From NCBI RefSeq assembly GCF_003269425.1, contig NZ_CP030104.1, positions 2,816,001 to 2,880,000 of the forward strand: DNA of 64,000 nucleotides, written 5' to 3'. The translations under genes and the position numbers were made by a program. The notes below the pieces were generated by a model that worked only from the letters and a program-made list of their open reading frames with translations, was not told where the DNA came from and searched no databases. Origin of the DNA: Flagellimonas maritima (GTDB lineage: Bacteria; Bacteroidota; Bacteroidia; Flavobacteriales; Flavobacteriaceae). This document shows positions 10,353 through 43,715 of the stretch, piece by piece; position 1 is the stretch's first letter; each line of letters starts with the position of its first letter.

Positions 10353-10356
10353 AATT

Positions 10357-10917: not shown

Positions 10918-10919
10918 AA

Positions 10920-12257: not shown

Positions 12258-12259
12258 AT

Positions 12260-14175
<1,916 letters not shown>

Positions 14176-15015: not shown

Positions 15016-15019
15016 CTTG

Positions 15020-26172: not shown

Positions 26173-26175
26173 AAT

Positions 26176-27474: not shown

Positions 27475-28806
27475 TTATTCACTATCGTATCCTGGATTCT
27501 GTGCTAAATTGTCAGAAACCTGAAGTTCATCCCTTGGAATGGGCAGCACTCTTCTAAAGCTTTCAATACCAAGAACTTCCTCTGCTTGCCCAAGTCGTAC
27601 CAAGTCAAAGAAACGATGACCTTCAAAGTTCAATTCGGCACGTCTTTCATATTGTAGCGCATCCACATATTCGTCTGTATCTGCAAATGGTCCAGTATCG
27701 GGTAATCCCGCCCTATTTCTTACTACATTTAAATCTTCGGTACCCGCATTTGGGTCATTGGAATCAAATACAGCAGCCTCGGAGCGTATAAGATAGAGTT
27801 CTGGTAAACGAAATACCTTTGCATTGTCAGAATTAATGGGATCTGGGTATTTATTACTTTCGTTGACAGAACTGAAAGCAAAAATATTGGCTCTTTGGTC
27901 ATTCTCCTCAAAGCTTTCAAGCAAGTCCGGGTCCACATTATATTCGTTTCTAAACAAAGTAAATGTAAAAAGAGAGCTTTCATCCTGATCATTGAACTCA
28001 ACTTCAAAAATAGATTCTGTTGTCGCATCGGTAGTGGCATAAACATCACTTACATTCTCTACCAACTCGTAGGGGCCATCCGTAATAACTTCATTTGCAT
28101 CTGTGAATGCACCATCATAATCTTTCTGATACAACTTGACTCTTGCCCTAAGACTAAGGGCTGCGTAGTAGTTCATTCTGCCAGAATCGGTACCCCCGGC
28201 ACCTATATTTATGGCATTATCCAAATCGCTCAAAATCTGACCATATGTTTCCGCAACAGTACTTCTTGCCAAATCAGGGATTTCGTTGAAATCATTATTC
28301 GGAATAGGTTCCAATAATAGAGGAAGCCCGTATATGGAAGTAGTATCGTAATGTTCGCCAAATACCCGTAAAAGATCAAAATACGCAAGGGCCCTTATGG
28401 CGTAAGCTTCTGAAAGTACTGCATCGACATCTAAATTTGCATCGTCAATATCATTTACAGTGGTAATAATCAAATTTGCGCTATTGATTATAATATAAGC
28501 ATCCGGCCAAAAATTTCCTATCCATAAATTTGTTGTTGGAACTGCTTGATTATCAAATTCTAATTGTGAATCAAAAAATCCTTCCATAATAGCGTTATCC
28601 GCAATCAAATCAAAATTGAGAATATATTCTGCACCATAGTAATCTGCATCCTGCATTAATGAGTACGCTCCCAACAATGTTCCTTCCACTGAAGCTGCAT
28701 CGACCAATACACCATCAGAATCCAATGATTGTTGTGGTTCCGGTTCCAGAACATCACATGAAACCATCAGTATTATAGCTAAAAATAAACTTATTGTTTT
28801 TTTCAT
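27475..28806 (-). CDS. SusD/RagB-family surface lipoprotein
   Basis: This 443-residue protein has a lipoprotein signal with lipobox MVSC (residues 14-17). SusD marks include an N-terminal TPR-like helical part (YAIRALAYFDLLRVFGEHYD), the block RMNYYAALSLRARVKLYQKDYDGAFTDA, and the closing ELNFEGHRFFDLVRLGQ with LPIPRDELQVSDNLAQNPGY. SusD proteins bind ligand at the cell surface and close over their SusC. It lies 12 nt behind the susC gene. The ligand is unknown, but the neighbouring catabolic genes point to a nitrogen-rich compound or peptide rather than a glycan. Confidence 0.94.
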   Translation of the reverse strand: MKKTISLFLAIILMVSCDVLEPEPQQSLDSDGVLVDAASVEGTLLGAYSLMQDADYYGAEYILNFDLIADNAIMEGFFDSQLEFDNQAVPTTNLWIGNFWPDAYIIINSANLIITTVNDIDDANLDVDAVLSEAYAIRALAYFDLLRVFGEHYDTTSIYGLPLLLEPIPNNDFNEIPDLARSTVAETYGQILSDLDNAINIGAGGTDSGRMNYYAALSLRARVKLYQKDYDGAFTDANEVITDGPYELVENVSDVYATTDATTESIFEVEFNDQDESSLFTFTLFRNEYNVDPDLLESFEENDQRANIFAFSSVNESNKYPDPINSDNAKVFRLPELYLIRSEAAVFDSNDPNAGTEDLNVVRNRAGLPDTGPFADTDEYVDALQYERRAELNFEGHRFFDLVRLGQAEEVLGIESFRRVLPIPRDELQVSDNLAQNPGYDSE

Positions 28807-28818
28807 AATATTTTAAGA

Positions 28819-31800
28819 TTAAAGTCCTATGTTAAAACCTAAAGTGATGGTCCTGGCCTGTGGTAATGTACCAAAATCAGAACCTGCGAGTCTTGGATCT
28901 CTTGCACTCCTGCTAACTTCCGGGTCTAGCCCCGTGTAGTCTGTGAATGTCAACAAATTTTGTCCTTGAACAAATACCCGAAATTTTTGAAGCCCAAGTT
29001 TGGATACAACTTCCTGTGGAAGACGATAGCCTATGTTCAAGTTTTTCAGTCGAACAAATGAGCCGTCCTCCAACCAACGTGTTGAATATTGTTGCCAGTT
29101 GCCGCTCTCCAGTGATGCTCTTGGAATATCTGTAATGTCCCCTGGTTGTCTCCATCGATTTCTTGCTCCGGCATAATTATTTCCGTCAGGAAGCGGAAAC
29201 CCGGTACCGATTCTGCTCCAACCTAGATTTTCATAAATCGCTCTGCTATTATTGAAAATCTCATTTCCAATATTAAATTGGAACAGAAAACTAAAATCAA
29301 AACCTTTGTAGCTAAAGGTATTGTTCCAGCCACCAAAGAAATCGGGTTGTGCATTACCTACAATTTGACGGTCATCCGCATTTATGTTACCATCTTCATT
29401 AAGATCTATCCATAACATATTCCCAGTTTGTGGATCTACACCATTATGATCGATCAAAAAGAAAGTTCCAATTGGATTTCCTTCGGCCAAAATATGGGAA
29501 TCGGAAATTATTTGTCTGTCCACGGCCAATTTTTTAATCTCATTATCTATGAAAGAAATATTAAAAGAAGAGTCCCATTTGAAATCTCCCGTGAATATTG
29601 CTCCATTTACCGTCAATTCAAATCCACGGTTTTCTACTTCTCCAATATTGTCGATGACGCTTGAGAAACCTGATATGCCCGGTATGATTCTATCCAAAAG
29701 TAAATCGTCTGTTTTCTTTATAAAATAATCTGCAGTAAGCGACAATCTATTATTGAACAAACCTAAGTCGACACCAACATTGAACTGTGCAGTACTTTCC
29801 CAGCTTAAGTTTTGATTGCTCAATTGCGTAGGTATCAGAGTAGCTCTTTGTCTGTAATCGTCGATTCCGAACAATCCCCTTGCAGGAAAATTTAAAATAT
29901 CACCAGCACTGTTGGTAATACCGTCTTGGTTACCTGTAATCCCGTAACTGGCCCTAAATTTTAAATCAGAAATTGTTTTGGAATTCTTTAGAAAATCTTC
30001 TTGGCTTACACGCCATGCTACGGACCCAGAAGGAAAGAAACCAAAACGGTTTTGGTCACCAAATCTGGATGATCCATCTGCCCTTCCAGTTAAAGTAAGC
30101 AGGTATTTATTGGCCAAGCCATAGTTTGCTCTAAAATAATAAGAAGCAAGTCCCCACTCTGTACCTCTTGAATACGCATCGGTCACCTGTGCTGCGGTTT
30201 CGAGTTTGGTAAATTGATCACTTGGAAAACCTTGCGCATCTATCCTTGTAAAATTACGATCTGATGCTTGATAGGAAGCTCCCAGTATAGCATTTAAAGA
30301 ATGATTGTCCCCCAAATCCGGTGTATAGGTAAAATAATTTTCCGTTATCCAAGTAAAATCTTCGGTACTGGAGTAGCGTCCCAGACCATTGGCGTTTTGA
30401 TCTATTGATTCAAACGATATGGTAGGTGTAAAGGATTCATCTGTTAAACTAGTATAATCAATAGAAGTTGAGGTGCGAAACTTTAAACTTTTTGTAAGTT
30501 GAAGTTCTGCAAAAATAGTTCCCAAACCTCTGGTCGTACGTGTAAATCTACTATACTCATTAGCAACGAGTACAGGATTGTCCAACATCCACCAACCAAA
30601 ATAATCAAATGGACTGGCGTAGGTGCCGTCATCTTCCCTAACGGGCATTAAGGGGTCACCTGCCAATGTATTGATAACGACACCGTACAATGAATTATCA
30701 TTGATAGTACGATCTTGAATAGTTCTGGTCACAGCTACATTAGTTCCGATTTTTAACCAATCCTTCACTTGAGTATCCAAGTTTATTCTGCCGCTAATAC
30801 GTTCAAAACCAGTACCTAACTGTGTTCCTTCTTGATTAAAATAAGCCAAGGAAGTATAATATTGGGTTCTTTCGTTACCACCCGATACCGATACATCATG
30901 ACTTTGGATTGCAGCGGTTCTAAAAATCTCATCGTACCATTTCGTGTTTCTCAGCTCAGGATCGTTTGGATCGAACCCCCATAAATCTGAAACATAATTT
31001 TCAGGATAATCTGTTCCAAGGTCGATGTTGTCCTGTGCTGCGGCATCGTTCATAAGCTCTAGGTATTCTTGTGAGCTAAGCATATCTATAGTATTGGTAA
31101 CTGTTTGGAATCCATAATATGAATTGAATTCTACACGTGGTGCACCTGTACTACCTCTTTTGGTTGTAATCAAGACTACACCATTGGCACCTCTGGAACC
31201 ATAGATTGCAGTTGCAGAAGCATCCTTTAAAATTTCAATGGAAGCAATGTCCGTAGGATTTATATCAGCCATTGAATTAGTTCTTTGACCACCAGAAAAC
31301 AAATCTGATAAATCCTCGGATATCATAGGTATACCATCAATCACGTAAAGGGGCTCGCTACTTGCCGATAACGAAGTATTACCGCGAATTTGAATGGAAA
31401 TACCCGCGCCAGGTGTACCCGAAGGCGAGCTTATAAACGCACCGGCTGCCCTACCTTTTAGCGCATTATCTACACTGGCTACAGGCAAACGTGCAATTTC
31501 ATCACCACTTACACTGGCAACGGAACCTGTTAAATCGCTTTTCTTCTGGCTACCATATCCTACCACCACTACTTCTTCCAGTTGCGATGCATCCTCTTCC
31601 ATTTGTATGTTTATATTGGTATTAGATCCTACAGTTCTTTCAACGGTTTTTTGTCCTAAATAAGAGAATATCAACGTATTTGAAGAGGAGGCCTCTATCG
31701 TGTAATTACCATCAAAGTCTGTTTGTGTTCCTGTGTTTGTTCCCTTGACAAGAACATTGACACCTGGTAATGGCAGACCGTTTTGGTCTGTAACCGTCCC

Positions 31801-31881
31801 AGTAATTACTTGTCCGTAGACCATGGCAAACATACTTGCCATGAAAAAGGATAGTATAAAACTTAGTAGTTTTATTTTCAT
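28819..31881 (-). CDS. SusC/RagA-family TonB-linked outer-membrane transporter
   Basis: This 1020-residue transporter has a signal peptide, an N-terminal carboxypeptidase-like domain (ITGTVTDQNGLPLPGVNVLVKG), the TonB-box region LEEVVVVGYGSQKK, a plug with the SusC block LYVIDGIPM and ATAIYGSRGANGVVLITTK, and a large barrel that ends in RTITLGFNIGL. It takes oligomeric or bulky substrates over the outer membrane together with SusD. No glycoside hydrolase lies nearby; upstream on the same strand are gabT-like, aldehyde dehydrogenase and carbamoyl hydrolase genes, 150 nt away, so it may serve amine or peptide uptake. Confidence 0.95.
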   Translation of the reverse strand: MKIKLLSFILSFFMASMFAMVYGQVITGTVTDQNGLPLPGVNVLVKGTNTGTQTDFDGNYTIEASSSNTLIFSYLGQKTVERTVGSNTNINIQMEEDASQLEEVVVVGYGSQKKSDLTGSVASVSGDEIARLPVASVDNALKGRAAGAFISSPSGTPGAGISIQIRGNTSLSASSEPLYVIDGIPMISEDLSDLFSGGQRTNSMADINPTDIASIEILKDASATAIYGSRGANGVVLITTKRGSTGAPRVEFNSYYGFQTVTNTIDMLSSQEYLELMNDAAAQDNIDLGTDYPENYVSDLWGFDPNDPELRNTKWYDEIFRTAAIQSHDVSVSGGNERTQYYTSLAYFNQEGTQLGTGFERISGRINLDTQVKDWLKIGTNVAVTRTIQDRTINDNSLYGVVINTLAGDPLMPVREDDGTYASPFDYFGWWMLDNPVLVANEYSRFTRTTRGLGTIFAELQLTKSLKFRTSTSIDYTSLTDESFTPTISFESIDQNANGLGRYSSTEDFTWITENYFTYTPDLGDNHSLNAILGASYQASDRNFTRIDAQGFPSDQFTKLETAAQVTDAYSRGTEWGLASYYFRANYGLANKYLLTLTGRADGSSRFGDQNRFGFFPSGSVAWRVSQEDFLKNSKTISDLKFRASYGITGNQDGITNSAGDILNFPARGLFGIDDYRQRATLIPTQLSNQNLSWESTAQFNVGVDLGLFNNRLSLTADYFIKKTDDLLLDRIIPGISGFSSVIDNIGEVENRGFELTVNGAIFTGDFKWDSSFNISFIDNEIKKLAVDRQIISDSHILAEGNPIGTFFLIDHNGVDPQTGNMLWIDLNEDGNINADDRQIVGNAQPDFFGGWNNTFSYKGFDFSFLFQFNIGNEIFNNSRAIYENLGWSRIGTGFPLPDGNNYAGARNRWRQPGDITDIPRASLESGNWQQYSTRWLEDGSFVRLKNLNIGYRLPQEVVSKLGLQKFRVFVQGQNLLTFTDYTGLDPEVSRSARDPRLAGSDFGTLPQARTITLGFNIGL

Positions 31882-32032
31882 AATTATTTTGTATTATTAG
31901 TATTAATATTTAAACTGATTTGGGTCTTGTTTCAGTAATTTTAAACTCATGTTTTTTTAGATTTTGATTGAAATTATTTGCATTTAAAACTGAGTTACAT
32001 TGGTTTTCTTCATAGTGTTCTGATTTTAGTTA

Positions 32033-33313
32033 TTAATTTATTTTTATCTCATTAAGAATCTTTTCAAAGATGTTCTGTGCATCCTGTATCTGAACTTTAG
32101 TAACTACTAATGGGGGAATCCACCGAATCACATTTTTATAACTGCCACAGCTTAAAAGGAGCAGGCCATTGTCAACACAACGACGTACTATTTTTGAGAC
32201 TATCTCAGCATCCGGTGAACCATCTTTTTTTTCAAATTCAACCGCAACCATAAGACCAATACCTCGTACATCGCCTATACAACTAAATTTTTGCTGTATT
32301 TTTTTTAGTCCTGTAATCAATTCCATGCCTTGCATTACCGCATTGTCAAGCAACTTTTCTTCCATAATGGTTTTGATGGTTGCCAGCGCAGCAGCACCCG
32401 TAATTGCGCTGCCCCCTCCATAGGTTCCACCATGGGTACCTGGGGACCACTTTTCCATGATTTCTTTTGATGAAGCAATTGCTGAAATTGGAAGTCCGCT
32501 TCCCAAACCTTTTGCCATGACGATGATGTCTGGCTTTACATTTGCATGTTCAAAACAGAAAAACCTTCCTGTTCTGCCAAATCCACTCTGTACCTCATCG
32601 ATTATAAGTAATATGCCGTGAGCATCGCAAATCTCACGCAGATGATGAAGAAACCTGTGCGGAGCAGCAACATAGCCGCCTTCACCTAGTACCGGCTCAA
32701 TAATTATTGCGGCAGTTTCATCTGGCGAAGTTTGCCCATGTAAGAGCAGATCAAGCTGTTTGATGCAAAAATCTATAGTAATGTCTTCGTCCCAACCGTA
32801 ATAGTAGGCATAGGGAAAGGGGGAAACAAAAATCCCGGAAGGTAGGGGTTGGTATTTATATCGGTAAGCTGTTTTGGAAGTGGTCATGGCCATGGTCAAA
32901 TGCGTTCTGCCATGGAAACTTCCCTGAAATACGATAACGTTCTGCCTTCCTGTGGCCGCTTTGGCCAATTTTACAGCACTTTCAGTAGCTTCTGCACCGC
33001 TGTTTGAAAAAAAGAAGCGATTAATATGCTTTGGAGTTATTTCATTCAGTTTTTCAGCCAATTCAATGCTAGTAGTTGGGATTACACAGTTCATCTGGCC
33101 AAAAAGAAGTTTTTTAGACTGTTCCTGAATGGCCTTTACCACATTTGGATGACAATGGCCCGTGTTTACCACACCTATACCAGATGTAAAGTCCATGCAC
33201 TCTTTGCCTTCTTCATCATATAGATATACACCCTCGCCCCTAACTGCTTGAAAAGTGGATAGGTGTGTCCAAACAGGGGACAGCAATTCTGTTGAAAGCA
33301 TCTCGGCACTCAT
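32033..33313 (-). CDS. Class III aminotransferase, probable 4-aminobutyrate aminotransferase
   Basis: This 426-residue PLP enzyme has class III marks: SNSGAEATESAVKLAKAATGR, QGSFHGRTHLTMAMT, the aspartate block LLIIDEVQSGFGRTG and the PLP lysine in IIVMAKGLGSGLP. The GRTG and GGTYGG parts are typical of GabT-like and acetylornithine-like members. With a succinate-semialdehyde dehydrogenase coded in the same island, GABA transamination is the likely job. It is 25 nt behind the aldehyde dehydrogenase gene on the same strand. An ornithine or other omega-amine substrate remains possible. Confidence 0.85.
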   Translation of the reverse strand: MSAEMLSTELLSPVWTHLSTFQAVRGEGVYLYDEEGKECMDFTSGIGVVNTGHCHPNVVKAIQEQSKKLLFGQMNCVIPTTSIELAEKLNEITPKHINRFFFSNSGAEATESAVKLAKAATGRQNVIVFQGSFHGRTHLTMAMTTSKTAYRYKYQPLPSGIFVSPFPYAYYYGWDEDITIDFCIKQLDLLLHGQTSPDETAAIIIEPVLGEGGYVAAPHRFLHHLREICDAHGILLIIDEVQSGFGRTGRFFCFEHANVKPDIIVMAKGLGSGLPISAIASSKEIMEKWSPGTHGGTYGGGSAITGAAALATIKTIMEEKLLDNAVMQGMELITGLKKIQQKFSCIGDVRGIGLMVAVEFEKKDGSPDAEIVSKIVRRCVDNGLLLLSCGSYKNVIRWIPPLVVTKVQIQDAQNIFEKILNEIKIN

Positions 33314-33338
33314 TTTTTTCTAAATCAGTTTTTTTTAT

Positions 33339-34832
33339 TTATAATACAGTCCATACTGCTTTTTCCTTAGTATAAAGATCTATGGCACTTTTACCCATTT
33401 CTTTTCCGTTTCCACTTTGTTTAAAGCCTCCAAAAGGTACTGCAGCGTCAAAAAGGTCGTAGCCGTTTATCCAAACTGTACCTGCATCGATAGCATTTGC
33501 AAAACGATGGGCCTTTGATAGATCTTTGGTCCATACCGCTGCAGCCAAACCATATTTAGAGGTATTGGCCTTTTTAATGACTTCGTCAAAATCCTTGAAT
33601 TTGGAAACCACCACAACGGGACCAAAAATTTCTTCTCTCGCAATGGTTAAATCTTCGTTTTTGGTAATGAAAATGGTAGGTTCTAAAAAATACCCTTTTG
33701 CCAAATCCCCATCAAGGCGATTTCCACCATACACCAATTTGGCCCCTTCTGTCTCACCTAATTCTATATAGTCCAATACGGTATTCAATTGCTTTTCACT
33801 TATCATAGGTCCTAAGTCTGGATTGTTGAATCCATTGCTTATGGTCATTTTGCCAGCTTTTTCTTTAAAGGATTTTAGGACTTTTTCAAAAATGGATTCT
33901 TGTACATAAATCCTTGAACCGAGCGTACATTCTTGTCCAGTATTATAAAAACTGCTCCATTGTAAACTGTCCAAAACCATATCTAAATCAGCATCCTCGA
34001 AAATTACATTTGGAGATTTACCACCAAGTTCTAAGCTCACCTTTTTTAAATTGCTTTTGGCTGATGCTTCCATGATTTTCTTACCAACTAGAGTAGACCC
34101 TGTAAAGCTGATTTTATCTATATCCATGTGCTGTGACATTGCTTGCCCTGTGGGGATTCCAGGACCCGTGATAATGTTGACCACTCCTGGTGGAAAACCA
34201 GCCTCTAAAATCAATTTTCCCAAATAAAGTGCGGTAAGTGGTGTTTGTTCCGCGGGTTTAAGAATACAGCAATTTCCACAGGCCAAGGCTGGAGCAAGTT
34301 TCCATATCGCAATCATTAACGGGAAATTCCAAGGAACTATAAGGCCGACTACCCCTAAAGGTTCTTTTTTGGTGTAAACTAATTTATTGGAGTGTGTAGG
34401 AATTGTTGTCCCTTCTATTTTGGTGGCCCATCCAGCATAATATTTCAAATGGTTGATGGCACCTAGAACATCATATTTAGCTTTTTCCAGAGGTTTGCCA
34501 TTGTCCAATGTCTCCAATTCCATGAAAATTTTTATATCCCTTTCTATAAGGGTGGCTAGTTTCCAGAGTAAATCTGAACGCTCTGCTGGTTTTATCCCAT
34601 CCTTCCAAATAAGATCAAAAGCATTTCTGGCAATTACAACGGCATTGTCCACATCGTTTTCGTCCGCTATGGGAATTTTGGTCAACACGTTTCCATTTGC
34701 GGGATTCAATGTGTCAAAAGTTTTTTTTGCCTCACTTTCAATCCACTGGTTATTGACCAACATTTTTTTTGTTGAAGTCAAAAACGTAGTGGTTTTTTCA
34801 GTTAAAGCGATATGACTTGTTTTTACCTTCAT
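33339..34832 (-). CDS. NAD-dependent aldehyde dehydrogenase, candidate 4-aminobutanal dehydrogenase
   Basis: This 497-residue enzyme has the aldehyde dehydrogenase marks: NFPLMIAIWKLAPALACGN, SFTGSTLVGKKIM, the glutamate block LELGGKSPNVIFEDADLD and the catalytic cysteine in YNTGQECTLGSR. It resembles ALDH1/PuuC-like members more than SSADH. In this island it would oxidise 4-aminobutanal, formed by an aminotransferase from putrescine, to GABA. Its ATG overlaps the stop codon of the M20 hydrolase gene (ATGA), so they are translated together. Betaine aldehyde or another small aldehyde cannot be excluded. Confidence 0.86.
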   Translation of the reverse strand: MKVKTSHIALTEKTTTFLTSTKKMLVNNQWIESEAKKTFDTLNPANGNVLTKIPIADENDVDNAVVIARNAFDLIWKDGIKPAERSDLLWKLATLIERDIKIFMELETLDNGKPLEKAKYDVLGAINHLKYYAGWATKIEGTTIPTHSNKLVYTKKEPLGVVGLIVPWNFPLMIAIWKLAPALACGNCCILKPAEQTPLTALYLGKLILEAGFPPGVVNIITGPGIPTGQAMSQHMDIDKISFTGSTLVGKKIMEASAKSNLKKVSLELGGKSPNVIFEDADLDMVLDSLQWSSFYNTGQECTLGSRIYVQESIFEKVLKSFKEKAGKMTISNGFNNPDLGPMISEKQLNTVLDYIELGETEGAKLVYGGNRLDGDLAKGYFLEPTIFITKNEDLTIAREEIFGPVVVVSKFKDFDEVIKKANTSKYGLAAAVWTKDLSKAHRFANAIDAGTVWINGYDLFDAAVPFGGFKQSGNGKEMGKSAIDLYTKEKAVWTVL

Positions 34833-36094
34833 TTCGACTTGTTCAAAATTTCTTCGTTGTTCAAAACTTCGATACCGGCCATTTGTAAAACTGCATTCAA
34901 CAAAACATTTGTTCCATTAATCACATCTACTTTTTTTGCACTTTCCATTTCATTATGACTAAGTCCTTCTTTACAGGGGATGAAAATCATGCTTGTGGGA
35001 GCTACTTTAGAAACATAAACAGCGTCATGTCCTGCACCACTTACTATTTCCATAGTCGGTATCTTTAAATCATGAGCTGCATTCTTAACCGCATCTATGC
35101 ATTCTTTGGAGAATTTTACCGGGGGAGAATACCATATTTCCTTTAGGGTAGAAGTAACTCCAAGTTTTCCATCGTGACTTGTGATGATATGCTCTAAATC
35201 CTTGTCCAACATAGAAAGTACCGTTTCATCTGGATGCCTCAAATCGATAGCCATTGTTAAGGAACCGGGTACGGTATTGCGTACGCCGGGAATAGCATCA
35301 ATATAACCTACGGTCACTTTTGCATCGGGGCTATATATTTCGGCGAGTCTATAAATTTGCGGAAGTATCTCTGTCAATGCTTTTACGGGGTCCTTCCGGT
35401 ATTCCATGGGAGATGGTCCAGCATGGGTCTCTTTGCCATTGAGGACTAAATCGTACCAACGTATGCCTTGTACACCAGTAACGATTCCTACAGATTTATT
35501 TTTAGCTTCTAAAATAGGACCTTGTTCAATGTGCAGCTCAAAAGTGGCTTTGTAGGGTCTGTTCCCTACTTCCATGCTCCCTTTATACCCGATGCGTTCC
35601 AATTCTTCTCCAAGTGTTTTCCCTTCTTTATCCGTTCTTTCATAAGCATAGTCCAAGCTAAAATCCCCTGAAAAAACACCCGAAGCAATCATGGCAGGTG
35701 AGAATCTGGCACCCTCCTCATTTGTCCATGAAACAATTTCTACTGGGATCTCTGTAACAATGTTCAGGTCATTAAGGGTATCCATGATTTCCAATCCTGC
35801 AAGTACGCCAAGTACCCCATCAAATTTCCCTCCTGTTGGTTGGGAATCTAAATGGCTACCTATCATTATGGAGGGTTTGCTATTATCCTTGCCAGGTCGA
35901 GTTGCATATATATTTCCAATTTTATCAATGTCAATATTACAGCCTGTTTCCTTGGCCCATTTTATAAATAAATCCCTTCCTTGCTTATCTTCATCGGTCA
36001 AGGCCACGCGACATACCCCACCCTTGGCAGTGCCTCCAATTTTGGACATCTCCATCAATCTTTTCCATAATCTATCGCCGTTAACTTTAATCAT
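34829..36094 (-). CDS. M20-family N-carbamoyl amidohydrolase (Zn-dependent)
   Basis: This 421-residue enzyme belongs to the hydantoinase/carbamoylase branch of the M20 peptidases. The metal ligands are visible in MIGSHLDSQPTGGKFDGVLG (His, Asp) and SWTNEEGARF (Glu), with a dimer-domain segment FELHIEQGPIL and the last His in GLSHNE. Family substrates are N-carbamoyl-L-amino acids, beta-ureidopropionate and allantoate. Given an agmatine deiminase-family gene in the island, hydrolysis of N-carbamoylputrescine is my proposal. The start at 36094 (MIKVNGD) leaves 10 nt to the Lrp gene; the longer frame would overlap it. Confidence 0.88.
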   Translation of the reverse strand: MIKVNGDRLWKRLMEMSKIGGTAKGGVCRVALTDEDKQGRDLFIKWAKETGCNIDIDKIGNIYATRPGKDNSKPSIMIGSHLDSQPTGGKFDGVLGVLAGLEIMDTLNDLNIVTEIPVEIVSWTNEEGARFSPAMIASGVFSGDFSLDYAYERTDKEGKTLGEELERIGYKGSMEVGNRPYKATFELHIEQGPILEAKNKSVGIVTGVQGIRWYDLVLNGKETHAGPSPMEYRKDPVKALTEILPQIYRLAEIYSPDAKVTVGYIDAIPGVRNTVPGSLTMAIDLRHPDETVLSMLDKDLEHIITSHDGKLGVTSTLKEIWYSPPVKFSKECIDAVKNAAHDLKIPTMEIVSGAGHDAVYVSKVAPTSMIFIPCKEGLSHNEMESAKKVDVINGTNVLLNAVLQMAGIEVLNNEEILNKSK

Positions 36095-36104
36095 CTTGTT
36101 TTTT

Positions 36105-36608
36105 TTAGTCCATATCTTCTTGTAGGAGTATATTTTTTGTAGGTAGTTCCAAATCATGTTCGGCCCATTTGTAGACATTATAATAAATGGTTGAATTGGT
36201 ATTGCGGACTCCTTTAATATTGAAAATCTTCTTTTTCATAACTTCCAGTAAATGCCGATTGTCCCTACAAATTAGATTGATTTCAATATCCGAAGGTCCA
36301 GAGGTAAGTGCCAAAAAAGATATTTCTTTAACTTTCATGAGTTCTTGTGCCACATACTCTATCATACTGGAGGGGCTGACTTCAATTGTAACCCTATTAT
36401 ATGAGTTAAAACCTGTTTTTGTAGGATCTACCCAGCCCAGAATATGTAACATGCCCTCATCGACCAATTTATTGTATCTGTTCCTAACCGTAGAAACAGA
36501 AACGTTAAGTGCTGAGGCAACATCAGTAAAAGACATTCTGCCATCTTTTTTCAGAAGTTGTATAAGGCTTTGGTCAAAAGCATCAAGTTGAAAAAGGTTC
36601 TCGCTCAT
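36105..36608 (-). CDS. Lrp/AsnC-family transcription regulator
   Basis: This 167-residue regulator has an N-terminal winged helix-turn-helix (about residues 8-60: FDQSLIQLLKKDGRMSFTDV then ALNVSVSTVRNRYNKL) and a C-terminal RAM domain (about residues 70-145) that binds small ligands, commonly amino acids. It is the first gene of the minus-strand catabolic operon and divergent from the aminotransferase/agmatine deiminase operon. It probably controls both from the shared intergenic region, where inverted repeats are seen, in answer to a pathway compound. Confidence 0.93.
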   Translation of the reverse strand: MSENLFQLDAFDQSLIQLLKKDGRMSFTDVASALNVSVSTVRNRYNKLVDEGMLHILGWVDPTKTGFNSYNRVTIEVSPSSMIEYVAQELMKVKEISFLALTSGPSDIEINLICRDNRHLLEVMKKKIFNIKGVRNTNSTIYYNVYKWAEHDLELPTKNILLQEDMD

Positions 36609-36666
36609 TTCTAAAACGTTGATTAATGTAAAAATTATAATAAAAGTTCAATAATATGCATATTTT

Positions 36667-36747
36667 GCAAATAATAGTAATTAAATATCATTTTTTACAC
36701 ATTTAACCATAATTATTGCATTTTATTTGCTTTATTGCAGTGTGTAA
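36667..36747. promoter_or_regulatory. Nested inverted repeats in the divergent regulator region
   Basis: Between lrp and the aminotransferase gene, GCAAATAA (36667-36674) pairs with TTATTTGC (36723-36730) and TTACACA (36695-36701) pairs with TGTGTAA (36741-36747). AT-rich, spaced repeats of this kind are typical of Lrp-family operators, which wrap DNA around several dimers. Both operons start from this 180-nt region. Confidence 0.45.
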
Positions 36748-36786
36748 TTATTAAATGTGATAAATTAATAAACGGTATTCTTGATA

Positions 36787-38190
36787 ATGATTTTCACTAA
36801 AAACAATATATCCTCAGATTTAGAAAGAGCTTGGCAAAATGATAAAGACCATGTTATACATCCCTATGCCAATTATGAAAGATTTCATGAAGACGGTTCG
36901 GTAGTATATACGAAAGGAGACAGACATTTTATATATGATGACAAGGACAGGAAATACCTTGACGGTATAGCAGGGTTGTGGTGTGTTAACATTGGGCATG
37001 GTAATGTAGAGATGGCCGCGCATATAGGGGAGCAAGCTAAAAATTTGGCATATTTCAATACTTTTGAAGATGCAACGTCTCCTTCAGCTGCAAATCTAGC
37101 GGCAAAATTGGCATCATTATGTCCAGGGAGCCTTAATCATGTCTTCTTTGGAACTGGTGGCTCCATGGCAAATGATTCTGCCATAAAAATTGTCCATTAT
37201 TATTTTAATATGTTGGGGATGCCAAAGAAGAAAAAGATTCTTTCCAGGAATCTGGGCTATCATGGCAGTACTTATTTGGCACATGCCCTTACGGGTATAT
37301 CATCTACTCACATAGGGTTTGATTTGCCAAAGGATATGATAACTTACCTTTCTGCACCGTACCCATATCGGAGACCTGATGAAATGACCATCCAAGAGTT
37401 TTGTGATTCTCTTATAGAAGAAATGGAGCATAAAATTTTAGAACTTGGTCCAGAAACTATCGCCTGTTTTATTGCAGAGCCCATTATGGGTGCCGGTGGC
37501 GTCATAGTTCCACCTGATGGATACCTAATAAAAGCTTATGAACTTTGTAAAAAGTACAATATATTGGTTATTGCCGACGAAGTTGTTACCGCATTCGGCA
37601 GATTGGGCCATTTGGTAGCTTCGAAAGAAAAATTTGATGTGCAACCAGATATTATCGTTTTGGCAAAAGGATTGTCATCAGGTTACATTCCCTTGGGAGC
37701 TACGGTAATTTCTGAAACTATACATAAAGTAATCAGCAGACCAAAACCAGAAAATCCTTATTTCTCGCATGGATTTACTTATTCTGGGCACGCTTTGGCA
37801 TGCGCTACCGGATTAAAGAATATTGAAATTATGGAAAGAGAGGACTTTTGCGGACACGTGAGAACTGTTGGACCTTATTTTAAAAAGCAACTAAAGACAT
37901 TGGAAGACCTTCCTGTAGTTGGAGAGGTGCGCGGTAGCCATTTTATGCTGGCCTTGGAATATGTAAAGGATAAAAGAACCAAGGAATCATTTCCCGCAGA
38001 AATCAATATAGGAAAGAGAATTTACCATTCAGCTAAAAAAAGAGGATTGATTATAAGGCCCATAGGTCCTATCAATGTGCTTTCACCACCGCTCACCTAT
38101 GATAAGGACGCTATTGATGAAACAGTTGATATTATGAAAAAAAGCATCCTGGAAACCATGAACGACCTGAGTAAAGAAGGCCACTTATGA
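36787..38190 (+). CDS. Class III omega-aminotransferase, candidate putrescine-pyruvate type
   Basis: This 467-residue PLP enzyme is of the omega-amino acid:pyruvate/putrescine transaminase group. Marks: GGSMANDSAIKIVHYYFNML (the group-typical GS-ANDSAIK), LGYHGSTYLAHALTG, the aspartate block ILVIADEVVTAFGRLG and the PLP lysine in VLAKGLSSGYIPLGA. In Pseudomonas a relative (SpuC) turns putrescine into 4-aminobutanal. The start is the ATG at 36787; an in-frame TTG precedes it. Its stop overlaps the ATG of the agmatine deiminase-family gene (ATGA), so the two are translated together. Beta-alanine or taurine are other possible donors. Confidence 0.84.
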   Translation: MIFTKNNISSDLERAWQNDKDHVIHPYANYERFHEDGSVVYTKGDRHFIYDDKDRKYLDGIAGLWCVNIGHGNVEMAAHIGEQAKNLAYFNTFEDATSPSAANLAAKLASLCPGSLNHVFFGTGGSMANDSAIKIVHYYFNMLGMPKKKKILSRNLGYHGSTYLAHALTGISSTHIGFDLPKDMITYLSAPYPYRRPDEMTIQEFCDSLIEEMEHKILELGPETIACFIAEPIMGAGGVIVPPDGYLIKAYELCKKYNILVIADEVVTAFGRLGHLVASKEKFDVQPDIIVLAKGLSSGYIPLGATVISETIHKVISRPKPENPYFSHGFTYSGHALACATGLKNIEIMEREDFCGHVRTVGPYFKKQLKTLEDLPVVGEVRGSHFMLALEYVKDKRTKESFPAEINIGKRIYHSAKKRGLIIRPIGPINVLSPPLTYDKDAIDETVDIMKKSILETMNDLSKEGHL

Positions 38191-39560
38191 AAAAAGTGAC
38201 TATATATGGCAAGCGTAATGGTTTAAAAATAAAAAGCGTTGGAAGTAATGGCTTTCTTCGGTGCTCCACTGTATTACTACTATTAATTATTGTTGGTTGT
38301 AAAGAAAAAAGCAAAACTGCACTGAATCAAAAAGATGAAGTCATCGAGGTACTGCGTCAACCGGCAGAATACGATGAACAGGAGGCCGTATGGTTGCTCT
38401 GGTCTCCTGTGGACCATTTAAAAGGCCAATCCAATGTAAATGTGACCTTGAAGATTATTGATGCTTTGGTTCAAAAAGAGAGAATAATTGTTTCTGCCGC
38501 TACAGATTCCTTGCTTAAAATGGCTCAAAAAAGCATTCCTAAAGAATATTTGGACAAGGGATGGGTTGAACTTCTTAAAATACCCTCTGAAGAACTATGG
38601 GTAAGGGATATGGGACCAAACTTTGTAGTGCTGACAAATGGCAAAAAGGCCATCGTTGATTTTGGATTCAATGCATGGGGCTACACGGACAGTGATAATA
38701 TGGACGATTATACCATCCGTATGGAAAAGTTTGATGAAGCTGTGGCACATATAAAAAATCTCCCTCTGATTCAAACAAATTTAATTAGTGAGGGTGGTAA
38801 TAGGGAAGTAAATGGTGAAGGTGTGCTCATGGTTACGGAAGCGGTAGAAAGGGGCAGAAACCCAAATATGGACTTAAAAGAAATGGAAGCCGAATTTCAG
38901 CGTGTTCTCGGTATTGAAAAGGTAATCTGGTTAAAGGAAGGACTCAAGGAAGATGATCATACGTTTAGAGGAGTCGTAGCGTTGGAAAATGGCGAATTTG
39001 CCTATACAGCGGTAACTACCAATGGCCATATTGATGAGTTCGCCAGGTTTGTAAATGACTCTACCATTCTTTTGGCAAGTGTAAAAGCCAAAGATTTGGA
39101 AGATCCTGTAGCAGCAGAAAATCACAAACGGATGGAAGAAAATTACAATATCCTTACTAAAGCGACCGACCAAAATGGCAATCCCTTTAATATTATCCGT
39201 ATGCCACTGCCCAAACTTGTTTTGGGTAAAATGGGACCAGGGGATTTGGTCTATGATTTTATCAGTGAACTTGAATATGAAGATGGGTCAGTTTTTCCTG
39301 TAGGAGATGAGGTTACTGTTATTGCAGCAGCGAGCTATCTTAATTTTTTAATTACAGATGAGGTGGTCATCGGACAAAAATACTATTCCGATGGAATGGA
39401 CAAAGAGATTGAAGAAAGAGATAAAGAAGCAAAAAACATTTTACAACAAGTATTCCCAAATCGTACAATCGTTATGATCAATGCATTGGCCGTTAATTTT
39501 GGTGGTGGTGGAATTCATTGTATTACCATGAACGAACCTACGATTGATAACCGGAAATAA
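38187..39560 (+). CDS. Exported agmatine deiminase-family lipoprotein
   Basis: This 457-residue protein has a long basic N-terminus, a hydrophobic stretch and a lipobox LIIVGC (C at about residue 36), so it is likely a lipoprotein outside the cytosol. The rest is a peptidylarginine/agmatine deiminase domain (PAD-porph family): WVRDMGPNFVV, LISEGGNREVNGEGVLMVTE and the catalytic cysteine near C445 in GGGGIHCITMNEP. Typical agmatine deiminases are cytosolic and about 370 residues. It would turn agmatine, or arginine residues if it acts like the Porphyromonas enzyme, into a ureido compound plus ammonia. The split between those substrates is open. Confidence 0.88.
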   Translation: MKKVTIYGKRNGLKIKSVGSNGFLRCSTVLLLLIIVGCKEKSKTALNQKDEVIEVLRQPAEYDEQEAVWLLWSPVDHLKGQSNVNVTLKIIDALVQKERIIVSAATDSLLKMAQKSIPKEYLDKGWVELLKIPSEELWVRDMGPNFVVLTNGKKAIVDFGFNAWGYTDSDNMDDYTIRMEKFDEAVAHIKNLPLIQTNLISEGGNREVNGEGVLMVTEAVERGRNPNMDLKEMEAEFQRVLGIEKVIWLKEGLKEDDHTFRGVVALENGEFAYTAVTTNGHIDEFARFVNDSTILLASVKAKDLEDPVAAENHKRMEENYNILTKATDQNGNPFNIIRMPLPKLVLGKMGPGDLVYDFISELEYEDGSVFPVGDEVTVIAAASYLNFLITDEVVIGQKYYSDGMDKEIEERDKEAKNILQQVFPNRTIVMINALAVNFGGGGIHCITMNEPTIDNRK

Positions 39561-39569
39561 ACCCATTAT

Positions 39570-40880
39570 ATGCTCACAAGACATTTACTATTCGCTTTAT
39601 TTTTTGTTTTGCTTTTTTCGTCATGTGGGAATGATGGGAAAAAACCTGTTCCAGAATTCATTGCGCTCAATACGCAAGGGCTACAAAAAGAACTGGACTC
39701 AGTTTTTGTAAGAAACGAATTAATGGGAATGTCCGTTGCACTTATCGATGAAGGAAAAATATCATGGCAGTACACCCATGGTCTAGCAGATGAAGGGCGA
39801 AATATCCCAATAACGGAAAACACTATATATAGAGTAGCATCAATATCTAAATCGATAACGACATCAGCATTGCTGCAATTATGGGAAGCTGGAAAGATAG
39901 ACTTGGATGTCGATGTTAGCGAATATTTAGGTTGGAAATTGGTAAATCCCAAATATCCGGACATACCGATAACCTTAATGCAGCTTTTGAGCCATCAAAG
40001 TAGTATTAGGGATGGGGAAGGCTATGGAAGGTTTTCTAAAAACATGATAGTCAAAGAACTGAATATTAAAGAACTATTTTCAATAAGCGGTGAATATTTT
40101 ACCGATGACATTTTTGCAGCGCATGAGCCTGGGGAATATTTTTCCTATACCAATTGCACCTGGGGCATTATTGTTTCCGTAATCGAAAAAATCAGCGAAC
40201 AGCGTTTTGATGACTACTGCCGAGAACATATTTTCAAACCATTGGGAATGAAAGCTGATTTTAATGCTTCCAAGATTGATAAGATAGATTCCCTTGCTGT
40301 TTTATATCGCTACAACGACGATGCATGGGTTGCACAGGCAGACAATTACAAAGGCATTGTTCCCGAATCGCGTGCGTATGAAGGATATGAACTCGGGCAA
40401 AACGGATTGCTTTTTGGTCCTCAAGGAAGTTTAAGAAGCTCTGCAAATGATTTGGCAACATTCTCCCTCATGCTAATGAATGATGGTTACTACAACAAAA
40501 CTCAAATATTGAAAAAAGAGACAGTGTCCCTAATGTTGGAAAGTCACTGGATGTACAATGCCGACAATGGCAACACGTGGGAAAACTTCTTTTTATCCTA
40601 TGGACTAGGCATACACATTTTGAGCAATACCGAAGGCTCCGATATTATTTTTCCAAATTGGAAAATGGTGGGCCATCCGGGCATTGCTTATGGTCTATTG
40701 AGCGATATGTATTTTGATAAAGAACGTAGAAGTGGTATTGTCTTTATAACCAATGGGTCTAAAAAAAGCTTTGAATATGGACAGCATACCTCTTTCTATC
40801 AAGTAGAAGAAGATGTTTTTAAAGTGATTCATCCTTTTTTAAAGGAAATTGAAGATAAAAGACAATTAAAAGAGGAATAA
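39570..40880 (+). CDS. Serine hydrolase of the class C beta-lactamase/D-aminopeptidase family, lipoprotein
   Basis: This 436-residue protein has a lipoprotein signal with lipobox LFSSC (C at residue 20). Family marks are S-I-S-K (SxxK, in YRVASISKSITTS), Y-T-N (in YFSYTNCTWG) and H-P-G (in MVGHPGIAYG). Such enzymes hydrolyse amides or esters, often of D-amino acids or beta-lactams. It lies 9 nt behind the deiminase gene and 2 nt before the antiporter gene, within the catabolic operon, so it may release the island's substrate from a larger compound in the periplasm. Confidence 0.88.
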   Translation: MLTRHLLFALFFVLLFSSCGNDGKKPVPEFIALNTQGLQKELDSVFVRNELMGMSVALIDEGKISWQYTHGLADEGRNIPITENTIYRVASISKSITTSALLQLWEAGKIDLDVDVSEYLGWKLVNPKYPDIPITLMQLLSHQSSIRDGEGYGRFSKNMIVKELNIKELFSISGEYFTDDIFAAHEPGEYFSYTNCTWGIIVSVIEKISEQRFDDYCREHIFKPLGMKADFNASKIDKIDSLAVLYRYNDDAWVAQADNYKGIVPESRAYEGYELGQNGLLFGPQGSLRSSANDLATFSLMLMNDGYYNKTQILKKETVSLMLESHWMYNADNGNTWENFFLSYGLGIHILSNTEGSDIIFPNWKMVGHPGIAYGLLSDMYFDKERRSGIVFITNGSKKSFEYGQHTSFYQVEEDVFKVIHPFLKEIEDKRQLKEE

Positions 40881-40882
40881 AC

Positions 40883-42241
40883 ATGGAGCATTTGGGTCTT
40901 CTGAGTTTACTTCCAACACTTACGGTAATTGTTCTGGCCTTGCTGACCAGAAAGACGTTCGAGGCTTTGGTCGGCGGTTCTTTAGTTGGATTTCTCATTA
41001 TTTCCATCTCTAGTTTTTTTACGGATTTTACAAACTCCTTGCTTCAGGTAATGCAGGATGCTACCATAGGCTGGGTTATATTGGTTTGCGGTCTGTTCGG
41101 TTCACTGATTCACCTTTTGGCACAGTCAGGGGGAACAACTGCGTTCTCAAGTTATTTACTGAAATATGTAAAAAATAGAAAAGGAGCTCTTTTGGCTACA
41201 TGGCTATTGGGGCTTTGTATTTTTATAGACGACTATCTAAATGCACTTACTGTTGGAGCATCCATGAAGAAAGTTACCGATCGTTTTAAAGTTCCCAGGG
41301 AGATGCTGGCCTATGTAGTAGATTCTACTGCAGCACCAATTTGTGTATTGATACCTTTATCAACTTGGGCAATTTATATTTCCGGTCTTTTGGAAAGTGA
41401 AGGAGTAGTGGAGAAGGGACAAGGACTTGCAGGCTATTTTCAGGCCATTCCTTATATAACCTACGGTTGGGTGGCAGCTATTTTGGTGCCTTTGGTGGCA
41501 TTGAACCTAATTCCTGCCTTGGGAGCCATGAAGCGAGCAGAAAAAAGGGCGGAACAAGGTATCTTGATTCCGCCAAATTCGGATTCCATCAATTTAAAAA
41601 TGCCCGAAGGTATTTCTGATAAAGCCCCAAAACTATCCTTCTTCGTCTTTCCCATTATTGTATTGATTTCGGCAACGGTTTTTTTTGATATAGATGCTCT
41701 AAAGGGTGTTATCTCAGCTATAGTTTTTACTGTTATTTTCTATGCATTTCAAAAGATTATGTCATTTACACAGGCAATGCAAGGCATTTTTACTGGATTT
41801 AAGACAATGTTTTATGCACTTGCTATCGTGGTTATGTCTTTTGTGTTAAAAGATGTAAATGACCAACTGGGTCTTACAAAATTTATAATAGAATCGGTCT
41901 CACCACTTATCAATAAAGAATTTTTACCATTGATAGCATTCGTATCTTTAGCATTGGTGACTTTTGCGACCGGTTCATTTTGGGGCGTGTATGCTATTTC
42001 ACTGCCGATTATAGTTCCATTGGCACAAGGCATGGGTGTAGATATTTGGTTGGCCATAGGGGCCGTCATCAGTGCTGGAGCTTTTGGTTCACATGCTTGT
42101 TTTTATGGTGATGCCACTGTATTGTCCGCATCGGCTACCGGTTGTAATAATATGGCGCACGTAATGACACAATTGCCATATACTTTAATAGCGGGGGCAA
42201 TCACATGTGTTATCTATCTAATTTTAGGTCATATGATATAA
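40883..42241 (+). CDS. NhaC-family Na+/H+ antiporter-like transporter
   Basis: This 452-residue membrane protein has about 11-12 predicted spans. The motif LGLCIFIDDYLNALTVGASM (paired aspartates in a membrane helix), and later DSTAAPICVLIPLSTWAIY and GSFWGVYAISLPIIVPLA, are those of the NhaC/arsenite-antiporter superfamily branch. Members exchange cations, and some carry organic substrates or amino acids. Its place in the amine-catabolism operon suggests it takes up or exchanges the amine or product, driven by sodium, rather than general pH control. Confidence 0.88.
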   Translation: MEHLGLLSLLPTLTVIVLALLTRKTFEALVGGSLVGFLIISISSFFTDFTNSLLQVMQDATIGWVILVCGLFGSLIHLLAQSGGTTAFSSYLLKYVKNRKGALLATWLLGLCIFIDDYLNALTVGASMKKVTDRFKVPREMLAYVVDSTAAPICVLIPLSTWAIYISGLLESEGVVEKGQGLAGYFQAIPYITYGWVAAILVPLVALNLIPALGAMKRAEKRAEQGILIPPNSDSINLKMPEGISDKAPKLSFFVFPIIVLISATVFFDIDALKGVISAIVFTVIFYAFQKIMSFTQAMQGIFTGFKTMFYALAIVVMSFVLKDVNDQLGLTKFIIESVSPLINKEFLPLIAFVSLALVTFATGSFWGVYAISLPIIVPLAQGMGVDIWLAIGAVISAGAFGSHACFYGDATVLSASATGCNNMAHVMTQLPYTLIAGAITCVIYLILGHMI

Positions 42242-42260
42242 GGATTCTCAAAATAAATTA

Positions 42261-43715
42261 ATGGAGCAGCAAATGATGAACAAAGAATTACTTTTTAATA
42301 CTTCATACGTGGATGGCAAATGGTCGACCAATACATCAGAAACTTTTAAGGTGTATAATCCAGCTAACGGAGAAGTAATTGCCGAAATACGTGACGACGA
42401 TGCTTCAATTGTGGAACAAGCCATTACAGCTGCTGATAAGGCCTTTAAACAATGGAGCGGTAAAACGGCATCGGAACGTTCAAAGATATTGGAAAAATGG
42501 TATGATCTGATATGCGAAAACCAAGAGGATTTGGCTAAGATAATGACCTATGAATGTGGAAAACCGTTAACGGAGAGCAGGGGTGAAGTTTCTTATGGCG
42601 CTTCCTTCATCAAATGGTTTGCAGAAGAGGGAAAACGTACTTATGGCGATGTTATTCCGTCTACTTCCAATTCAAAGCGAATTGTAACCATCAAACAGCC
42701 AATAGGGGTGGTGGGAGCAATGACTCCTTGGAATTTTCCGTTGGCCATGATCACAAGAAAAGTAGCTCCAGCCTTGGCAACAGGATGCACGGTAGTTGTG
42801 AGACCAAGTGAAGAAACCCCATTGACGGCTTTGGCCATAGCTAAACTGTCTAAAGATGCAGGTTTCCCTAATGGCGTTTTCAATGTGGTGGTAGGTAAAG
42901 ATGCGCCCACCATGGGAAAGATACTTTGTGAGAGCAATCTTGTAAAGAAAATATCTTTTACGGGATCTACAAAGGTGGGACAGCTACTTATGTCACAAAG
43001 TGCCAAAACACTTAAAAAAATGAGTTTGGAACTTGGTGGAAACGCTCCTTTTATTGTTTTTGAAGATGCAGATCTGGACGCTGCCGTTCAAGGAGCCATG
43101 GTATCAAAATACAGAAATGCAGGACAAACCTGTGTTTGTGTCAATAGATTCCTGGTGCACGAAAACGTGTATGACGAGTTCGTTGAAAAATTTGTGGCAG
43201 AGGTATTAAAATTGAAAATAGGGAACGGTTGGGTAGAGAAGGTTGAAATAGGGCCGCTTATCCATAAAAAAGCATTGGAAAAAACTGAGGATTTTATTGT
43301 GGACGCAAAAAATAAAGGTGGTGAAATACTTTGTGGCGGAAACAAAATCGACCAATTTTTTTATGAGCCTACAGTAATTGGGGAAGCTAATACCAAAATG
43401 GATTTGACTCACGAAGAAATTTTTGGGCCAGTTGCAGCAATTTTCAAGTTTTCAACAGATGAGGAGGCATTACGCATGGCCAATGATACCAAATATGGAT
43501 TGGCGTCTTATTTTTATTCCCAGAATATATCTAGATGTTGGAAGGTTGCAGAAGCGCTGGAGTATGGTATGGTTGGTATAAACGAAGGGCTCATTTCTAC
43601 GGAAGTTGCACCATTTGGAGGAATCAAACATTCTGGAATGGGCCGCGAAGGCTCTAAATACGGTGTAGAAGATTACTTGGAAATCAAATATCTATGTTTT
43701 GGGAATATGGAGTAA
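42261..43715 (+). CDS. gabD: Succinate-semialdehyde dehydrogenase (GabD-type)
   Basis: This 484-residue aldehyde dehydrogenase has the SSADH-typical double cysteine in NAGQTCVCVNRFLVH, with the catalytic Cys first. Other marks are MTPWNFPLAMITRKVAPALATG, SFTGSTKVGQLLM, LELGGNAPFIVFEDADLDAA and the C-terminal EVAPFGGIKHSGMGREGSKYG. It oxidises succinate semialdehyde to succinate, the last step of GABA breakdown. It closes the plus-strand operon, 19 nt behind the antiporter gene. Together with the gabT-like gene on the other strand it completes the GABA shunt. Confidence 0.92.
   Translation: MEQQMMNKELLFNTSYVDGKWSTNTSETFKVYNPANGEVIAEIRDDDASIVEQAITAADKAFKQWSGKTASERSKILEKWYDLICENQEDLAKIMTYECGKPLTESRGEVSYGASFIKWFAEEGKRTYGDVIPSTSNSKRIVTIKQPIGVVGAMTPWNFPLAMITRKVAPALATGCTVVVRPSEETPLTALAIAKLSKDAGFPNGVFNVVVGKDAPTMGKILCESNLVKKISFTGSTKVGQLLMSQSAKTLKKMSLELGGNAPFIVFEDADLDAAVQGAMVSKYRNAGQTCVCVNRFLVHENVYDEFVEKFVAEVLKLKIGNGWVEKVEIGPLIHKKALEKTEDFIVDAKNKGGEILCGGNKIDQFFYEPTVIGEANTKMDLTHEEIFGPVAAIFKFSTDEEALRMANDTKYGLASYFYSQNISRCWKVAEALEYGMVGINEGLISTEVAPFGGIKHSGMGREGSKYGVEDYLEIKYLCFGNME

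Follow-up and report, generated by a model that had tools for sequence, protein, structure and literature searches.

The window analysed here, a stretch of 64,000 nucleotides (bases 2,816,001-2,880,000) from the 3.77 Mb, single-contig genome of Flagellimonas maritima (Flavobacteriaceae), contains an island of two divergent gene blocks flanking an Lrp/AsnC-family regulator gene, and on balance the island probably encodes an ordered route from agmatine through N-carbamoylputrescine, 4-ureidobutanal, 4-ureidobutyrate, gamma-aminobutyrate (GABA) and succinate semialdehyde to succinate. Every reaction of this route is proposed from gene content, conservation, co-occurrence, family membership and residue conservation. 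The genes had been marked by a first-pass annotation as candidates for a step-by-step path from agmatine to succinate. All those that it named are real and belong to the families it gave, as judged from open reading frames and profile matches, and the Lrp/AsnC gene does sit between the two blocks. The gene set and the GabT/GabD end of the path, with its gabT-like and gabD assignments, fit as well, while the decarbamoylation step was probably misplaced. The island comprises the following features:

27475-28806, minus strand: SusD-family lipoprotein (Pfam SusD_RagB and SusD-like_3 above cut-off; signal end LMVSC)
28819-31881, minus strand: SusC/RagA TonB-linked outer-membrane transporter (TIGR04056, 960 bits, cut-off 368)
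32033-33313, minus strand: class-III aminotransferase, most likely GABA to succinate semialdehyde (best model NF005993, 524 bits, cut-off 574)
33339-34832, minus strand: aldehyde dehydrogenase (ALDH), proposed 4-ureidobutanal dehydrogenase (Aldedh, 583 bits)
34829-36094, minus strand: M20 carbamoylase of the beta-ureidopropionase/N-carbamoyl amino acid hydrolase kind, proposed to convert 4-ureidobutyrate to GABA, CO2 and NH3 (NF006769, 596 bits, cut-off 452)
36105-36608, minus strand: Lrp/AsnC-family regulator (HTH_AsnC-type and AsnC_trans_reg above cut-off)
36609-36786: divergent intergenic region, with a candidate operator element at 36716-36739
36787-38190, plus strand: class-III omega-aminotransferase (NF005447/PRK07036), proposed N-carbamoylputrescine:pyruvate aminotransferase (NF005447, 656 bits, cut-off 618)
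38187-39560, plus strand: putative exported PAD_porph deiminase lipoprotein, proposed to convert agmatine to N-carbamoylputrescine and NH3 (Pfam PAD_porph, 250 bits, cut-off 25)
39570-40880, plus strand: putative exported beta-lactamase-family (S12-like) serine hydrolase lipoprotein (Pfam Beta-lactamase, 164 bits)
40883-42241, plus strand: NhaC/ArcD-type antiporter, proposed inner-membrane importer of N-carbamoylputrescine or agmatine (Pfam Na_H_antiporter, 104 bits)
42261-43715, plus strand: GabD succinate-semialdehyde dehydrogenase (SSADH; TIGR01780, 676 bits, cut-off 646)

The minus-strand order is lrp, M20, aldh, gabT-like, susC and susD, and the plus-strand order is aminotransferase, deiminase, serine hydrolase, NhaC-type transporter and gabD, with overlaps of 4 bases between aldh and the M20 gene and between the aminotransferase and deiminase genes. 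The open reading frame of M20 spans 34829-36178, and the start at 36094 removes an overlap with the Lrp gene.

According to the proposed scheme, the substrate of the locus would be agmatine or a compound that releases it, and the SusCD pair and the serine hydrolase would import and/or trim the parent compound. The lipoprotein deiminase would convert agmatine to N-carbamoylputrescine and ammonia outside the cytoplasm, the NhaC-type transporter would carry the product inward, and in the cytoplasm the omega-aminotransferase would act on its free amine to give 4-ureidobutanal, which the aldehyde dehydrogenase would oxidise to 4-ureidobutyrate. The M20 carbamoylase would then strip the ureido group to give GABA, which GabT and then GabD would take to succinate semialdehyde and succinate, with Lrp controlling both blocks. 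4-Aminobutanal cyclises to 1-pyrroline, and by the proposed order it would never be formed, the ureido group acting as a built-in protecting group. When transamination and oxidation come first, every enzyme in the cluster has a single use, on the type of substrate usual for it.

That the locus is a conserved unit was borne out by a synteny search in relatives (loci and genomes are numbered L and G below). The core, consisting of the deiminase, class-III aminotransferase, NhaC-type transporter, M20, ALDH and GABA aminotransferase, recurs in Bacteroidota in 17 loci termed type I, each counted once (the window, L047, L054, L055, L066, L067, L069-L073, L097, L099, L102, L103, L113 and L158; L101 and L104 lie on the same contigs as L054 and L055). 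These loci include G643, found from the M20 side, and three from a scan of family genomes; they are not a census, as the scan of named genomes kept the best 80 of 270 deiminase relatives. Gene order was read by tblastn, several loci are short contigs, and absences apply to the stretches read. Carriers include Gelidibacter algens, several Saprospiraceae metagenome-assembled genomes (MAGs), one Flammeovirgaceae MAG and uncultured Flavobacteriaceae, and the MAG that holds L113 has the label Thalassobius, which may be a binning error. The aminotransferase and the transporter are each found in 16/17 loci, M20, the serine hydrolase and Lrp each in 12/17, ALDH in 10/17, gabT in 9/17 and SusC in 7/17, and gabD was seen in the window only. 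Of the five loci without M20, three (L073, L103 and L113) run into a contig end on that side and two (L069 and L097) do not. The aminotransferase of Gelidibacter algens (L067:8546-9947) is split over two overlapping frames, by a frameshift or a sequencing error.

Among 397 genomes of the family, deiminase homologues at E <= 1e-40 occur in 19, ten of which (the window's included) reach E <= 1e-130; four of these ten have the cluster (G000, G293, G413 and G254) and six have the deiminase alone. No close homologue was found in 23 congeners, a few of them incomplete genomes, the best match being 31% identical. The aminotransferase at E <= 1e-130 is confined to five of the 397 genomes (G000, G063, G254, G293 and G413), and M20 at E <= 1e-90 to six, namely the same five and G364. 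This co-occurrence (5/5) has a Fisher p of 7e-11 by genome and 4e-8 by genus, values not corrected for relatedness. The M20 of G364 is 47% identical, lies on a 4.5-kb contig next to an amidohydrolase-family gene and presumably serves pyrimidine catabolism. The sole M20 besides the window's at E <= 1e-100 in 395 genomes of the phylum is that of G643, inside a full type-I locus. Chance clustering of the genes was considered and rejected on the co-occurrence and synteny.

The order of the middle steps depends on M20, which scores above the cut-offs of both NF006769 and TIGR01879 (the latter 422 bits, cut-off 204). It retains H81, D92, E127 and H380, which we take to be the metal ligands, and the pair N273/R286, which is kept in 9/9 aligned rows, E. 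coli AllC included; its solved relatives include the N-carbamoyl-beta-alanine amidohydrolase 8c46, which aligns across the same Asn/Arg pair. Such a pair presumably binds the carboxylate of the substrate in the M20 family, and 4-ureidobutyrate has a carboxylate while N-carbamoylputrescine has none. M20 most likely acts on an N-carbamoyl acid and is not AguB-like, and decarbamoylation would follow transamination and oxidation, because the enzyme belongs with those for N-carbamoyl acids and N-carbamoylputrescine lacks the carboxylate. For the same reason there is no support for the first-pass assignment, in which M20 hydrolyses N-carbamoylputrescine and the path runs through free putrescine and 4-aminobutanal. 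AguB, which is known to catalyse the hydrolysis of N-carbamoylputrescine, is a nitrilase-fold protein, and human beta-ureidopropionase has the same fold and is unrelated to M20. AguB-type enzymes are reported to be highly active only on N-carbamoylputrescine, the Arabidopsis enzyme being inactive on N-carbamoyl-beta-alanine (PMC4812014), and human beta-ureidopropionase accommodates 4-ureidobutyrate (PMC10741476).

If M20 nevertheless cleaved N-carbamoylputrescine to putrescine, with the aminotransferase and ALDH then yielding GABA, the same gene list would serve, and the solved relatives of the 36787-38190 aminotransferase do include polyamine:pyruvate and putrescine aminotransferases. The ALDH also matches aminobutyraldehyde models, as well as BADH and PuuC models, all below cut-off, with no model at cut-off among 25 matches listed of 45. 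A search with TIGR03381 found no AguB-like protein above 48 bits in the window's genome, nor one in G293, G413, G254 or G063 (best 48-74 bits across all five); this leaves M20 as the only carbamoyl hydrolase candidate found, and counts for the ureido-retaining order as well. We still consider this putrescine order unlikely, as the M20 subgroup is kin to hydrolases of N-carbamoyl-beta-alanine and N-carbamoyl amino acids and keeps the Asn/Arg pair, and as it is AguB-like proteins, not M20, that adjoin a related deiminase in L111, L112 and L114. There, a deiminase-family gene lies beside or near genes for an AguB-like protein (313-320 bits, cut-off 410), an NhaC-type transporter and GabD, and the stretches read, of which that of L112 stops short on one side, hold neither such an aminotransferase nor an M20. 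AguB-like proteins were found in 0/17 type-I loci, and those found elsewhere, at 313-322 bits, are themselves under the cut-off. G643, with a full type-I locus, has an AguB-like protein (322 bits) on another contig, which also led to the rejection of M20 as a simple replacement for AguB. Two genomes that have the deiminase without the cluster (G087 and G250) carry an AguB-like gene elsewhere (322 and 318 bits), beside a more distant PAD_porph homologue that is 24-27% identical, while the other four deiminase-only genomes have no AguB-like protein above 67 bits. At the downstream end, the 32033-33313 aminotransferase reaches no family cut-off among 25 matches listed of 69, and its closest solved structures are PuuE/GabT.

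No PAD_porph match at E <= 0.001 other than the deiminase was found in the genome. Its pentein catalytic residues (D141, E202, H281, D283 and C445) align with those of solved agmatine deiminases and are invariant in the alignment of relatives. These residues, its family and its kin beside AguB-like proteins suggest that its product is N-carbamoylputrescine, and the first-pass assignment as a deiminase agrees with that kinship. Eleven solved sequences were matched: five agmatine deiminases or iminohydrolases, five putative or family-type peptidyl-arginine deiminases and one hypothetical protein. An exported PPAD-like peptidyl-arginine deiminase that modifies proteins, its metabolic neighbours being unrelated, would agree with the export and with the family name PAD_porph. 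It is nonetheless very improbable here, given that 5/11 solved matches bear the agmatine deiminase or iminohydrolase name (a count that includes no direct comparison with PPAD) and that the core cluster is conserved across families. A tree of 85 deiminase rows (12 fragments or duplicates were removed from 97) groups the type-I and standalone deiminases together with weak support (95/59), next to a branch that holds L110, L111, L105 and L106; L114 forms a long branch whose placement is unsure. The 97 rows did not include L112, and group II of the tree is L110, L111 and L114.

Overlooked in the first-pass annotation were N-terminal signals on two proteins of the plus-strand block: the long N-terminus of the deiminase closes with LLLLIIVGC-KEK and the first stretch of the serine hydrolase with LLFSSC-GND, and both look like lipoprotein signals when judged by eye, without a signal-peptide program. 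Deimination would by this likeness take place outside the cytoplasm. The deiminases of L054 and L055 have a hydrophobic N-terminus without the cysteine. By eye, no lipoprotein-type signal is present on the aminotransferase, M20, ALDH, GabT or GabD, and because the deiminase looks exported and these later enzymes have no signal, a transporter would be needed between deimination and the subsequent steps. The NhaC-type protein, found also in L111, L112 and L114, is the only inner-membrane carrier in the cluster. Surface-lipoprotein signals have been described as K-(D/E)2 in Capnocytophaga and SDDFE in Flavobacterium (PMC5080379), and the signals of the island match neither exactly. The serine hydrolase has SISK at 91 and YTN at 193, and a KTG-type motif was not found by the pattern used.

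Several observations weigh against the proposed route. The deiminase falls short of the curated AguA models TIGR03380 (188 bits, cut-off 382) and NF010070 (201 bits, cut-off 483), and the position of Asp220, which contacts the terminal amine of agmatine in a plant enzyme (PMC6447857), is taken by Thr277 when placed relative to the GHID motif, after an insertion of about 19 residues; both features recur in L111 and L114, but the true substrate may still differ from agmatine. For L110, L105 and L106, which lie in the branch of L111, the stretches read contain no AguB-like gene. L069 has no aminotransferase, M20 or ALDH nearby, L097 has no M20 or ALDH nearby, L072 is without ALDH, and L047 and L067 are without gabT nearby. 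G293 has an agmatinase above cut-off (218 bits, cut-off 174), and a weaker ureohydrolase (110 bits) was found in the window's genome, so that another agmatine route may exist, although nothing in the locus supports one through agmatinase. Finally, the genome of G063 contains no PAD_porph match though the downstream module is kept, with lrp-m20-aldh-gabT-gabD contiguous and the aminotransferase at a distance of 6-7 kb (L156:1218-14796, L160:2916-16400). As this module occurs there without any deiminase, it can be fed by another source. The neighbours of the G063 aminotransferase are an acyl-CoA ligase, an acyl-CoA dehydrogenase, a short-chain dehydrogenase (SDR), an MFS protein, a decarboxylase-like protein and an agmatinase-family gene (116 bits, cut-off 174).

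The divergence of the deiminase from AguA, with Thr in place of the amine-binding Asp, is what would be expected if the substrate were a guanidino acid such as 4-guanidinobutyrate, or another guanidino compound that is not agmatine. The exported deiminase would then make the ureido acid directly, M20, GabT and GabD would finish the pathway, and the aminotransferase and ALDH would serve a second product. Members of this deiminase clade that lie outside the cluster lack widely conserved neighbours, so that the substrate range is not pinned down. Such a substrate is, however, unlikely: the AguB-like proteins beside three deiminase relatives point to N-carbamoylputrescine as the product, and the aminotransferase would be left without a clear role, though M20 accompanies it in 5/5 of the genomes that carry it. 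The related deiminases scanned (4/4) are also below the AguA cut-offs.

Outside the cluster, deiminases that look exported form a clade (L048-L053 and most of L074-L096), many of them in Arenibacter, Flagellimonas and relatives. When neighbour families shared by at least 4 loci were sought at 40% identity over 60% of the length in 29 non-type-I deiminase loci, only four families besides the deiminase were common to the same four Arenibacter loci, and one more to three of these and L053.

SusC and SusD adjoin each other beside the catabolic genes of the island, and the linkage proposed in the first-pass annotation holds for part of the loci. L055, L067, L099 and L102 have SusC, at 68-79% identity, at the corresponding end of the minus-strand block, and SusD homologues beside the cluster were found in L067 (64%) and L099 (73% over 162 residues). 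The linkage survives rearrangement at lower identity, SusCD lying between the aminotransferase and the deiminase in L070 (48/42%) and after the transporter in L097 (39/32%). It is limited to 7/17 loci in all, and the lack of SusCD in the stretches read of L047, L069, L071, L072 and L158 is a further point against the proposed route. The two putative exported hydrolytic lipoproteins together with SusCD would suit a locus that imports and dismantles a larger agmatine- or arginine-bearing molecule (a peptide, N-acylagmatine or cyanopeptide), the conjugate being deiminated and the serine hydrolase freeing the amine. L069, where an M14 zinc carboxypeptidase is encoded between the deiminase and the serine hydrolase in a group that also has the NhaC transporter (9980-15563), and L071, whose cluster holds a class A beta-lactamase-like protein, can be read in the same way. 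Four loci (L071, L072, L073 and L158) are without the serine hydrolase and five without SusCD in the stretches read, and a conjugate seems slightly less probable still than a guanidino acid; it would touch the first steps only and is compatible downstream with the ureido-retaining route. The gene for the beta-lactamase-like protein (L071:5530-6429; 117 bits, cut-off 200) stands between those for ALDH and M20, and the usual serine hydrolase is missing there.

Upstream of the aminotransferase, at 36716-36739, is a spaced TTGCA-type element (TTGCATTTTATTTGCTTTATTGCA), a candidate Lrp site or operator. In an alignment of four chosen loci it is common to the window, L066 and L067 and less clear in L047, and it is not evident in the intergenic regions of L070, L071, L072 and L158. 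When up to 3 mismatches are allowed, the pattern occurs once in the window where 0.03 occurrences would be expected, a figure that is not independent since the pattern was built from the same loci. No inverted repeat was common to the eight intergenic regions searched, and the Lrp gene was not seen in L054, L055, L073, L097 and L103. Just outside the island, a separate TonB-dependent receptor and DUF4249 pair (23767-27021) is not part of the conserved cluster, and a DUF6134 protein encoded downstream of gabD on the opposite strand (43892-44527) has no match in the related loci compared.

The chances are about even that the island represents a third, ureido-retaining branch of agmatine/arginine catabolism, in which the deiminase is exported and, in some of the lineages, SusCD imports an amine-bearing compound, not a sugar. 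If so, a pathway with two intermediates, 4-ureidobutanal and 4-ureidobutyrate, would be added, functions would be assigned to the aminotransferase and to an M20 subgroup that have only generic names, or that of allantoate amidohydrolase, in the family models, and a nitrogen compound may be what this SusCD pair carries. Bromophenols bearing gamma-ureidobutyrate have reportedly been found in red algae, making a red-algal source a lead only. Among the matches listed in a search of the open-access literature, which leaves out most subscription journals, no title was found on 4-ureidobutyrate or N-carbamoylputrescine transamination in agmatine catabolism, 4-ureidobutanal and 4-ureidobutyrate were not found as agmatine catabolites, and no title was found on SusC/SusD systems for polyamines.

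Compared with known systems, the locus would extend agmatine catabolism rather than open a new category. The AguA/AguB pathway (e.g., of Pseudomonas and plants) has a deiminase of the same Pfam family and the same proposed first product, N-carbamoylputrescine, but the deiminase of the island looks exported and is below the AguA cut-offs, and the island has no AguB-like protein. The AguA/AguB pathway removes the ureido group before transamination and oxidation, and the island is proposed to do so after them. The rhizobial arginine transamination network (CATCH-N) likewise uses an aminotransferase, a dehydrogenase, removal of a nitrogen cap and then GabT and GabD steps (PMC7268258). There, agmatine is transaminated with pyruvate and the cap is guanidino (4-guanidinobutanoate, ureohydrolase), whereas in the island it would be ureido; the words 'ureido' and 'carbamoylputrescine' do not occur in the main text of that paper. 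This network appears to be the nearest known logic to the proposed route. The Puu (gamma-glutamyl-putrescine) pathway also protects one amine while the other is oxidised, with a glutamyl group added at the cost of ATP, and the protecting group of the island would instead be the residue of the guanidino group. M20-type beta-ureidopropionase of reductive pyrimidine catabolism is homologous to the M20 of the island and has a substrate one methylene shorter, and a 47% identical M20 adjoins an amidohydrolase-family gene in L157, a pyrimidine-type likeness. Neither dihydropyrimidinase nor dihydropyrimidine dehydrogenase is present among the island genes, and pyrimidine catabolism was rejected as the role of the island on the lack of the former. 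As in SusCD utilisation loci (PULs), SusC and SusD adjoin exported hydrolases and catabolic genes, but profile searches of the island genes scanned found no glycan-active enzyme, and the catabolic genes of the island would serve amine nitrogen.

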